Origin: Prevotella sp.
GTDB lineage: Bacteria > Bacteroidota > Bacteroidia > Bacteroidales > Bacteroidaceae
Assembly (NCBI GenBank): GCA_017474515.1
Contig: JAFVHN010000100.1
Span: forward strand, 1 to 44,541
Length of the DNA stretch: 44,541 nucleotides
Direction of reading: 5' to 3'
Below the pieces are notes generated by a model. That model was not told the origin of the DNA. It saw nothing but the letters and a program-made list of their open reading frames with translations, and did no database searches. The position numbers were made by a program, and so were the translations under genes. Positions 3,595-39,951 of this stretch are shown one piece after another (the first letter of the stretch is position 1; each line of letters opens with the position of its first letter).

Positions 3595-3620
3595 GGAAAT
3601 GTTCATGTCTTGCGCAAACA

Positions 3621-3825
3621 TTTTGTCAAGATTTTTTATCGTTTTTGTAGCCGTCGGAAAACTTTGACCGCAAATTTCTCCCCTCAATCTTCAAGATCTC
3701 TCCCCTCAAACTTCAAAATCTCTCCCCGAAATTTGCGGTCAAACCAACAGTGATTTGCAAACCGCTGATTTTCAGCAGTTTACAAAACGTGCTCAAAAAT
3801 GGCAATTTTGTCAAGATTTTTCATC
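3621..3825. repeat. Interspersed palindromic element, copy A
   Basis: A 16-bp perfect inverted repeat (3663-3678 and 3728-3743) encloses three imperfect copies of a CTCCCCTCAAnCTTCAAnAT-like unit. The outer edges are near-identical direct blocks TTTTGTCAAGATTTTT at 3621-3636 and 3806-3821. The same layout recurs at 12606-12771 and 39682-39880. It fills most of the gene-free stretch between two convergent genes. Confidence 0.85.
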
Positions 3826-3871
3826 AAAAAATAGCCGGGGCACTATCCATGTCGGAGGGGTCGCTTTTCTT

Positions 3872-4546: not shown

Positions 4547-5068
4547 ATGTGTAGTTTGGAGTCATTAAGGATTGATTTGAAAGGTCTTGAGGCCGCCGAG
4601 ACGGTGTGTCACTACGACCTTGACGATCATTTTTTCGAGGCTATAGGCGCCACTGATGTTCAACGCGGCAAGTTTCATGTGATGGTGACCGTAAGGAAGT
4701 CATCGGGCATGTACGAGCTGCTTTTCCACATCGTGGGCACCGCCATCGTGTGCTGCAGCGTGTGCCTTGACGACGTGGAGGTTCCCATCGTCGATGACAG
4801 CGTGCTGACGGCACGGCTCGGGGATGCCAACGGCGTCGATGGCGACACGTTGGTGGTTTCCGAGGCCGACGGCATCCTCGATGTGTCGTGGCTCATCTAC
4901 CAGACCATAGCGCTCTGCATTCCCATCAGGCCTGTTCACGAGGAAGGGCAGTGCAATCCCGAAATGCTCCGGCTGCTCGGCGAGCACCAGGTGAAGGGCG
5001 AGCAGGTCACCGACCCCCGCTGGGACGCCCTGAAATCGTTGATGGCGGAGGGCGAAGAGAAACCATAG
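4547..5068 (+). CDS. yceD: DUF177 (YceD) family protein
   Basis: A 173-residue acidic protein of the YceD/DUF177 family, linked in other bacteria to 23S rRNA metabolism and almost always encoded just before rpmF, as here. Visible family traits are the N-terminal SLRIDLKGLE-type strand, the cysteine pair in CCSVCLDDVEVPI, and the acidic C-terminal half with EADGILDVSWLIYQTIAL. The start ATG at 4547 is kept although the promoter's -7 element ends only 8 nt before it. The stop codon TAG overlaps the first unit of a CTAG array. Confidence 0.88.
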   Translation: MCSLESLRIDLKGLEAAETVCHYDLDDHFFEAIGATDVQRGKFHVMVTVRKSSGMYELLFHIVGTAIVCCSVCLDDVEVPIVDDSVLTARLGDANGVDGDTLVVSEADGILDVSWLIYQTIALCIPIRPVHEEGQCNPEMLRLLGEHQVKGEQVTDPRWDALKSLMAEGEEKP

Positions 5069-5199
5069 ATAATCTAGAACTCCTAGATAATCTAGAGACT
5101 CTAGAAAATCTAGAAAATCTAGAAAATCTAGAACCTCTAGAAAATCTAGAAAATCTAGAACCTCTAGAAAATCTAGAAACTCTAGAACCTCTAGATAAT
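5065..5199. repeat. CTAG tandem array, 9-bp period, about 15 units
   Basis: CTAG recurs at 5074, 5083, 5092, 5101, 5110 and so on to 5191 with an unbroken 9-bp period. The commonest unit is CTAGAAAAT, with variants CTAGAACCT and CTAGAAACT. A degenerate first unit at 5065 contains the yceD stop codon. The array ends about 45 bp before rpmF. Confidence 0.97.
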
Positions 5200-5245
5200 A
5201 AAAATCAAGGCAACAAGAATACTAATTAAATATATTTAAAGAATT

Positions 5246-12540: not shown

Positions 12541-12605
12541 ATGATGCGCCCAGTCATCCGCCAACCATTTATCATTTGTCATTTAGCGGAGCGCAGCGCC
12601 GTCGT

Positions 12606-12771
12606 TTTTGTCAAGATTTTTTATGCTTTTTTTGTTGCCCCAAGAGGTTTGACGGCAAATCGCGGGGAGAGATTTGCCAATTCTCTCCCCTCAAAACGCC
12701 AATTTTCTCCCTGCGATTTGCCGTCAAACCTCTTGGAGTAACCAAAAATCCATGAATAATCTTGACAAAAC
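12606..12771. repeat. Interspersed palindromic element, copy B
   Basis: A 24-bp perfect inverted repeat (12640-12663 and 12713-12736) has the same TTTGACGGCAAAT core as copy C. The outer edges also match in inverted orientation: TTTTGTCAAGATT at 12606-12618 and its complement AATCTTGACAAAA at about 12758-12770. The whole 165 bp is therefore close to one palindrome. Inside, GGGGAGAG (12664-12671) and CTCTCCCC (12683-12690) can form a competing stem. Confidence 0.88.
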
Positions 12772-12828
12772 GGGGTCCTTCCCCAAGGGGCACACGAACA
12801 TAGGTCGGGGTGCCAGGTCCCGAAGAAA

Positions 12829-12888
12829 AAAGTGCCGGAGGTGCGACAGGCAATTCCTGGAATTATCCTGTCGCACCTCCGGCACTTT
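12829..12888 (-). terminator. Terminator of the sulfhydrylase gene
   Basis: A 22-bp perfect stem (12829-12850 with 12867-12888), 16-nt loop, with a T run on the minus strand (12828-12825). Confidence 0.93.
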
Positions 12889-16452: not shown

Positions 16453-16640
16453 AATTAGTTGTAATTCGTTTCAAAATATTAGTTGTAATTTGTTCTAATT
16501 AGTGCCAATTAGTTTCAAAAAAAATAAGTCAAAATTAATTCCAATTCGTTTCAAAAAATATTAGTTATAATTAGTTCCAATTCGTGCCAATTAGTTTCAA
16601 AAAAAATTAAGTCAAAATTAATCCCAATTCGTTTCGAAAA
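16453..16640. repeat. AATTnGTTnC array inside the mla operon
   Basis: AATT recurs at 10-bp steps in blocks: 16453, 16463; 16487, 16497, 16507; 16569, 16579, 16589, with further single units at 16543 and 16626. The unit is close to AATTAGTTCC. A longer direct repeat of about 57 bp is superimposed (about 16497-16553 and 16579-16636). It fills the space between mlaE and mlaF and contains no clear promoter. Confidence 0.9.
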
Positions 16641-16651
16641 AAAAGAAGAAC

Positions 16652-39597: not shown

Positions 39598-39681
39598 GTA
39601 GGAACGCGATGTGTCGCGTCCGCAAGTGAGGACATACGGCTAATCGCGAGCGCTGGCAGACGTGAAATATCACGTCCCTAC
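39598..39681. repeat. REPIN-like pair of inverted palindromes
   Basis: Two 26-bp units face each other: 39598-39623 (GTAGGAACGCGA, TGTG, TCGCGTCCGC) and, inverted, 39656-39681 (read on the minus strand GTAGGGACGTGA, TATT, TCACGTCTGC). Each is itself a palindrome with a 4-nt loop. The units differ by a paired change (C-G to T-A). The pair ends where element copy C begins. Confidence 0.8.
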
Positions 39682-39880
39682 TGTCAAGATTTTTCATGGT
39701 TTTTTGGTTGCCCCAAAAGGTTTGACGGCAAATGAAGGGGAGAGATTTGGCAAATTGAGAGGCGATAATTGGCAAATCTCTCCCCTAAATTTGCCGTCAA
39801 ACTCAGTGCAATTTTCAAACGTCTGATATTCAACACTTTACAATTTTTGATGCAAAATCCCCCGTTTTGTCAAAATCTTT
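39682..39880. repeat. Interspersed palindromic element, copy C
   Basis: Left edge TGTCAAGATTTTT at 39682-39694. The core inverted repeat TTTGACGGCAAAT (39721-39733) pairs with 39789-39801, continued after two mismatches by AGGGGAGAGATTTG (39736-39749) with 39773-39786. The right flank 39803-39880 matches the right flank of copy A, including TTTTGTCAA at 39865-39873. Confidence 0.87.
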
Positions 39881-39951
39881 TACCAATTTGTCCCCATGCC
39901 GCTATCCCCCCGAGGTAAGAAAAAGAAGTATGATAATTAGCGGTGAAGGAG

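Follow-up and report, generated by a model that had tools for sequence, protein, structure and literature searches.

The window, the 44,541-nucleotide stretch of DNA analysed here, is one whole contig (C28) of a draft Prevotella sp. genome of 3.51 Mb in 118 contigs that is 88% complete (G000 below). The host can be called a Prevotella-type bacterium from its EngA protein, which shares 81-89% identity with the EngA of the 80 best named loci, nearly all of them from Prevotella or close Prevotellaceae genera and many of them ruminant. A domain scan of 8 window proteins found a transposase in none, and a cmscan of the window against Rfam at the gathering threshold returned just 5S rRNA and a tRNA. 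Between the genes lie three copies of a repeated element, A, B and C, at the places where the first-pass annotation had put them; a 48-copy profile (nhmmer), built with A and C included and with B and two other copies (C94:113507 and C27:15454) left out, gives the outer limits listed below. The TGTCAAGATTTTT edge, the TTTGACsGCAAAT inverted repeat and the CTCTCCCC loop words claimed for these copies are all found in the sequence, and so is the right flank common to A and C.

3620..3860, + strand: copy A, full-length element from L to R (48-copy profile, sequence)
3621..3639, + strand: left end block L of copy A, TTTTGTCAAGATTTTTTAT (sequence; L identity 0.81 in 48 copies)
3662..3744, + strand: 83-bp core of copy A, two inverted 17-bp arms and two inner units (arm search)
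3753..3788, + strand: second palindrome IR2 of copy A, containing TTTGCAAACCGCTGATTTTCAGCAGTTTACAAAA (sequence, alignment)
3806..3825, + strand: right end block R of copy A, a direct repeat of L 185 bp downstream
12606..12772, no strand assigned: copy B, atypical, a left half followed by an inverted left half (sequence, repeat analysis, profile)
12647..12729, + strand: 83-bp core of copy B, GACGGCAAAT variant (sequence, arm search)
39680..39912, + strand: copy C, full-length element from L to R (sequence, profile)
39720..39802, + strand: 83-bp core of copy C, GACGGCAAAT variant (sequence, arm search)
39811..39846, + strand: IR2 of copy C (sequence, alignment)
39865..39884, + strand: R of copy C (sequence, repeat analysis)

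The arms of copy A are 66 bp apart (3 x 22). Copy B has 71-nt arms that are 86% complementary, and neither IR2 nor an R block was seen in it; the copy at C27:15454 is seemingly its mirror case, with right-half matches on both sides in the profile search.

Copy number and anatomy

The three copies are real, but as a count of the element they are a large underestimate. The 17-bp arm GTTTGACCGCAAATTTC has 211 forward and 211 reverse matches at two or fewer mismatches in the 3.51 Mb of the host genome, which excludes chance, since the reversed arm pattern used as a control on the same genome has 0 and 0. BLAST of copy A against the host genome returned at least 69 matching pieces with 40 of 270 first-look candidates scored, some of the pieces being opposite-strand matches of the same palindrome. 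For a detailed sample we took eight contigs including the window (791 kb, 22.5% of the host genome), on which the arm search found 51 copies and the profile added two diverged ones and one cut by a contig end. The density is about one copy per 15 kb, or about 240 per genome by extrapolation, and the element numbers some 200 or more copies per host genome.

The consensus runs in the order L (TTTTGTCAAGATTTTTCA), a 23-bp spacer, the 83-bp core, a short spacer, IR2 (ATTTTCAAACCGCTGATTTTCAACAAGTTACAAAA), a further spacer and R (TTTTGTCAAAATTTTTTACC). The core consists of a 17-bp arm, two inner units and the inverted 17-bp arm, making four units at a 22-bp pitch. These units are unequal: the outer ones are the arms TTTGACCGCAAA, and the inner ones 11-bp dyads that come as either ATCTTGAAGAT or ATTTGGCAAAT, with both inner units switching together in 15-16 of 49 copies. 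No other dyads in the element score as high as these inner boxes (.87 and.83); the centre of IR2 comes next (.80). In the usual copies, as opposed to B and C27:15454, R repeats L in direct orientation, and no terminal inverted repeats were found. Within the L consensus, T-tracts start about 11-12 bp apart.

Several local variations were seen beside this plan. At C15:5242-5280 (L053) and C41:35073-35111 a box is replaced within the array, with a full arm in the neighbouring unit and the arms 22 bp apart in direct orientation. The degenerate copy C94:113507 has a core of GTTTCATTGAAG-type 22-mers, possibly an older box type. A second short repeat, CATTTAGCGAAGCGC, often lies just outside the L end, as at 12580-12594 in the window and at other host loci.

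Drifted sequence at fixed length

Of the 51 sampled copies, 45 have matches to both arms, and every one of these 45 shows the 66-bp (3 x 22) distance between them. Of 75 copies measured, 66 have an L-to-core distance of 41 bp; the distance from the core to the TGA of IR2 is 104 bp in 69 of 72. Several outliers in these two counts proved on inspection to be motif mis-hits. In an alignment of the 83 distinct copies that score above 120 bits against the profile, 3606 of 15298 cells are substitutions, and the only L-R length changes greater than 1 bp are -11, -11 and -10, all between L and the core. The score cut-off removes badly rearranged copies, so the five lower-scoring copies on the eight contigs have to be read alongside it: C94:878 has an L-R distance of exactly 185 bp, rearrangement is seen in B and C27:15454, C69:66136 is without a visible L block, and C94:113507 is 2-3 bp short. 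Fixed helical phasing is thus a property of the 83 best-scoring copies, with one degenerate copy off by 2-3 bp.

Mean pairwise identity in 48 copies is high in the conserved blocks (L.81, arms.89 and.905, R.815),.67 in the inner array and.68 in IR2, and drops to.46,.35 and.42 in the spacers, where gap cells make up 0-0.4%. Among the 83 copies the spacers have drifted nearly to saturation in sequence while keeping their length, except by whole helical turns. The one-turn rule alone, coming from three events, is suggestive, and combined with the lack of other indels it speaks for double-stranded DNA that carries a protein complex. Identity across the 3403 pairs that these 83 copies form has a median of.68 and exceeds.85 in only 2 pairs, so the copies are not the product of a fresh burst.

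Arrays at the same pitch in related species

The full element was found in the host genome only: BLAST of its whole length, with two candidates scored per genome, gave no full homologue in 397 other same-genus genomes, so that the copies expected in relatives did not appear in full length. The same search returned short pieces in 29 other genomes, many of them in IR2 or L. The 17-bp arm stands at background level in 59 relatives, and a 24-base arm-plus-spacer word has no match in a genome contig collection, which may exclude the host genome. A phage origin was rejected, the exact 17-bp arm being absent from a viral contig collection.

A degenerate IR2 pattern occurs in 244 of 398 same-genus genomes (113 + 107 matches in the host, 26 + 27 in G403, 24 + 20 in G016; the pattern is near-palindromic and some sites are counted twice), and the reversed pattern has matches in about 16 genomes among those listed. 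Around IR2 in other same-genus species, lag 22 was the best of 16 lags at 9 of 19 loci and reached.55 or more at 5, whereas at 9 loci of other families it was best at 2 and never reached.55. Self-match scans favour the same pitch. In 400 kb of G016 there are 25 clusters at lag 22 against at most 1 at 13 other lags; on the host contigs there are 20 at lag 22, 10 at lag 14 and 6 at lags 16 and 21. At a threshold of.58, 400 kb yields 18 lag-22 clusters in G099 and 43 in G170, with 0-7 at other lags, and per 100 kb G010 has 5, with 0 each in G024 and two genomes of other families. Across the 80 named loci (1.28 Mb) we counted 27 clusters at lag 22 and 0-10 at other lags; removal of 11-bp repeats leaves 23 arrays in 19 of the 80.

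The boxes of these arrays differ by species, being TTGACGCAA in G016 and TAACGGTTA in Hoylesella pleuritidis. In G016 the box forms 258 pairs genome-wide (control 5) and 37 chains (reversed control 2). G170 carries three array families, a, b and c, with 15, 24 and 19 profile matches in 400 kb, some of them weak; these are counts by profile, as a seed-and-chain search recovered too few arrays of b and c. The palindromic four-box plan of family a is that of the host core. In 73 arrays of several species, after those with 11-bp periodicity or N were dropped, the dyad score is.744 against a shuffle mean of.675 (maximum.702 of 200), and in some named arrays the boxes are poor dyads. Of the 37 G016 arrays, 10 have an IR2 no more than about 200 bp away, against 1 of 148 shifted controls; of the tested arrays in the three G170 families, 0 of 15, 0 of 4 and 0 of 6 have one, so that IR2 is a frequent rather than a constant companion; it is near 1 of 3 G099 arrays, and the consensus of family c contains a diverged IR2. 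Strict conservation of position was rejected as a description of these arrays, the stretch above yceD carrying one in about 7 of 60 relatives, one of these borderline. The look-alike arrays of several species suggest a putative, unrecognised class of chromosomal protein-binding sites.

Intergenic position and spacing along the chromosome

The copies are intergenic, as the first-pass annotation had it for the three in the window: on the eight contigs none of the 51 cores overlaps a predicted gene, as judged with a home-made gene caller, and the approximate outer end reaches 3-29 bp into a gene in three copies. In G016, 3 of 37 arrays overlap predicted genes.

Neighbouring copies in the host also keep their distance. 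No interval of 46 is shorter than 4.9 kb, where 11.4 would be expected of random intergenic gaps and the lowest of 5000 simulations gave 3, the 4.9-kb limit having been chosen post hoc, after the smallest interval (4928 bp) was seen. An earlier test with a 5-kb limit had 1 of 43 intervals below it against about 9-12 expected, depending on the null. The intervals average 15.1 kb, with a coefficient of variation (CV) of.55 against.83 expected (P =.0006). Because a draft genome could hide close pairs, the spacing test was repeated in G016, a second species whose genome is closed and whose arrays use another box. There, too, no interval falls below 4.9 kb, where 8.9 would be expected, after the merging of doublets under 1.5 kb (37 chains to 32 sites), a step decided after seeing them; the CV is ordinary (P =.21), and 5 doublets are closer than 1.2 kb. 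G170 shows a modest deficit of within-family pairs under 5 kb (4 against 8.7, P =.033, pairs under 250 bp left out).

A candidate chromosomal site

Dispersed bacterial repeats are often taken as selfish debris, but old copies with exact geometry, near-saturated spacers and a minimum mutual distance point to a function. Of the three options that the first-pass annotation had offered, a chromosomal binding site is the best supported, given the rigid geometry, the one-turn length changes of the 83 best-scoring copies, the dyad-like inner boxes and the even spacing; a mobile element is its main rival, and a structured RNA is weak at best. Our tentative preference is therefore for a selected chromosomal site for a putative multi-protein assembly, most likely architectural. 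In such a model the element would act as double-stranded DNA that carries an assembly of several proteins in a fixed helical arrangement: the boxes would be filled, side by side on one helix face, by dimers of a DNA-binding protein, the T-tract-rich ends would be bent, and selection would keep the sites, most likely for chromosome organisation, through anchoring or topological insulation at intervals of about 15 kb. In related Prevotella the 22-bp plan would be shared and the boxes read by other proteins. Against the site model, array copies differ between species and could spread by copying, and even spacing is weaker in other species (the CV and doublets of G016, the modest deficit of G170). 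The choice of the 83 copies by score, the loosely kept array position above yceD, the poor dyads of some named arrays, the unequal units and the inner covariation, which a stem would predict as well, also count against it. The prediction that the DNA is a binding site has more support than the naming of either host or element as the one that benefits.

A wider version, which we consider doubtful as a whole, would have many Prevotella species keeping one or more genome-wide sets of 22-bp-pitch arrays, about one per 10-15 kb, as chromosome-organising sites in which the box and its cognate protein turn over while the plan is kept, the arrays spreading by copying and being retained by selection on geometry and spacing. 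If this were true, the array sets would be a fast-evolving bacterial counterpart of satellite or insulator sites. If arrays do organise the chromosome, then Prevotella offers natural replicates in which the site code differs and the plan is the same, and the evolution of a genome-wide DNA-protein code becomes testable.

Mobility as the main alternative

It is quite possible that the element is instead a long-lived non-autonomous mobile element, with recombinases binding to L, R, IR2 and the boxes, selection retaining only the copies that can move, and a local exclusion comparable to transposition immunity spacing them. The copy number, the intergenic position and the near-absence of fragments on 791 kb would all fit, as would the one host-genome pair of copies that is 94.5% identical. 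If the arrays are mobile, then the exclusion distance and the rigid cores point to an undescribed recombination system.

Signs of movement come from family c in the sister species. When two candidates are scored per genome, this family is matched in 22 of the 398 same-genus genomes, with 210-235 first-look candidates in G170, G156, G334, G372 and G403; its array lies within an element of about 590 bp whose ends are imperfect and inverted-repeat-like, presumably akin to ISL3 ends. At one orthologous site G372 and G156 carry a family c copy, with other inserted sequence beside it, and G170 lacks the copy. A different copy, shared by G170, G372 and G156, is by coordinates absent from G334. Over the same 15 kb the family a array is covered by continuous matches in G156 and G334. 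Of two family b arrays there, one is so covered in each of the three sister genomes and the other in just G372 and G156. With the family c site variable and the family a and b arrays spanned, arrays can evidently both ride mobile elements and persist. ISL3 transposase genes (PF01610) are present in all six family c genomes tested (17 matches in G372, 10 in G156, 8 in G334, 7 in G170, 4 in G148, 2 in G403), with 1 each in G016 and G099 and 0 in G024.

The host element itself carries no mobility signature that we could find in searches for target duplication, terminal inverted repeats and a partner transposase. Its ends are direct rather than inverted in the usual copies. Flanking k-mers of 49 copies agree no more than the shuffle maximum (k = 3, 4, 5, 8), although a target duplication could be missed because the right end of the element is not sharply defined. 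No ISL3 partner was found, the host genome, 88% complete, having no match to that transposase. A RAYT/REP partner was rejected: one Y1 (PF01797) match was found, flanked by other hairpins, and its 3.3-kb locus is without the element, the nearest copy found being about 3.2 kb away. The few recent pairs, and the fixed length of nearly saturated spacers, likewise sit poorly with mobility.

The Y1 transposase in question, IS200-like and RAYT-like (C24:23184-23495, L209), has GTAG-headed hairpins (GTAGGGACATACTTTATGTATGTCC) on both sides and belongs to a separate REP system. In the window, a GTAG-headed hairpin-like sequence at 39659-39681 (reverse strand GTAGGGACGTGATATTTCACGTC) adjoins the left end of copy C and resembles RAYT-linked REPs. 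In G016, an IS200-like transposase occurs in three copies (L341, L345, L349, L352; C1:624055, 610863, 668883-669334), each about 0.5 kb or less from a 22-bp array; two are intact and about 99% identical and the third is broken (91-95%), possibly an insertion sequence that targets arrays. This Y1 transposase of G016 was rejected as a general mobiliser, a homologue being absent at E <= 0.001 in G000, G170, G099 and G010.

Regulatory and RNA readings

That each copy is instead an operator array controlling the flanking promoters we think unlikely. In its favour are the flanks of the 51 copies: divergent pairs number 23, tandem 20 and convergent 8, against length-weighted expectations of 15.7, 30.8 and 4.5 (P =.0016 for 23 or more divergent), and in 37 of the copies a gene start lies towards the R side. 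Convergent genes, however, flank 8 copies, in G016 there is no divergent excess (11 divergent, 10 convergent, 13 tandem), and even spacing is not expected of a regulon.

A structured RNA or transcription terminator at gene ends is improbable. The first-pass annotation had taken the change at the seventh stem pair, from C-G in copy A to G-C in B and C, as compensatory. The three copies do have those states, but in 49 cores (the degenerate C94:113507 and C27:15454 dropped) the pair is CG in 32, GC in 4, GG in 4, CA in 3, CC in 3, TG in 2 and AC in 1, so that few copies are compensated (4 of 49, B and C included), 2 are wobble and 11 unpaired, and changes at this pair go mostly uncompensated. Over the arms of the 49 cores, 752 of 833 cells are paired against 741.5 +- 3.3 in shuffles (maximum 756), and there are 8 both-side changes against 3.1 (maximum 10), both within the shuffle maxima.

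The inner 18 pairs, on the other hand, covary beyond all 1000 shuffles, with 650 of 882 cells paired (605 in shuffles, maximum 630) and 75 both-side changes (54, maximum 66). Since this covariation sits largely at the positions that change jointly in 15-16 of the 49 copies, we read it as a joint switch of two whole boxes between dyad types, although a stem would predict the same. There is no excess of G.T over A.C mismatches (12 against 28 in the arms, 47 against 45 in the inner pairs). RNA folding of the three window cores is strong (-20.2, -47.5 and -52.4 kcal/mol; z -7.7 to -12.7), as expected of a core that is a long palindrome. The over-representation of divergent gene pairs and the Rfam scan of the window, which gave no family for the element, also speak against the RNA reading, and an RNA stem is not needed to explain the data.

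A replication-related site is extremely improbable: the architecture of the consensus gives that appearance, since AT-rich blocks adjoin iteron-like repeats and the word TATCCA occurs towards the right end, but there are some 200 copies per genome, and TATCCA is only moderately conserved and only partly fits the DnaA box consensus.

Relation to described repeats

No published description of the Prevotella arrays was found in the open-licence PubMed Central literature, subscription papers and preprints lying outside that scope. The closest described element found is the BrickBuilt MITE of Porphyromonas gingivalis (PMC4596501), which, as outlined there, is likewise an intergenic, non-coding element of the Bacteroidales with a short-period tandem array between a conserved leader and tail, and which bears on mobility as a 23-nt array within a MITE. 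Its 19 elements have 1 to 22.8 units of 23-nt direct repeats, and both terminal inverted repeats are intact in 4 of the 19 (PMC4596501). The always-intergenic position is matched by the host element (0 of 51 cores in genes); the variable 23-nt repeat is not, the arms being 66 bp apart in 45 of 45 copies. By that description the host element is set apart by its 22-bp pitch, fixed four-unit core, at least about 200 copies, even spacing and lack of any inverted ends that we found.

REP, BIME and REPIN sequences with RAYT also reach hundreds of intergenic palindromic copies in some genomes (PMC2817692, PMC3116915, PMC3733652). According to the passages cited, REPs are palindromes of 20-40 bp (PMC3733652), single or paired in REP/REPIN, whereas the host element is about 240 bp long with four units and IR2. 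Unlike in REP/REPIN systems, moreover, the Y1 transposase of the host is flanked by the GTAG-headed hairpins and not by the element.

Two further comparisons concern pitch and distance. The ends of Tn7-like transposons hold arrays of 22-bp transposase sites, and target immunity excludes nearby second copies; the host arrays differ from such ends in being solitary and about 240 bp long. Pneumococcal BOX elements are modular, and we know of no fixed 22-bp pitch or exclusion distance in BOX or RUP. Both are, in the account cited, likewise small interspersed chromosomal repeats (PMC3049150).

The window holds other short repeats besides the element. Tandem repeats of 9 bp built on TCTAGA occupy 194-283 and 5058-5210, and an AT-rich array of about 10-bp units (AATTAGTTNN / AATTCGTTNC) lies between two predicted genes at 16453-16642. 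A perfect 22-nt inverted repeat at 12829-12888, by the stop codon of a Cys/Met-metabolism gene, is likely a terminator.
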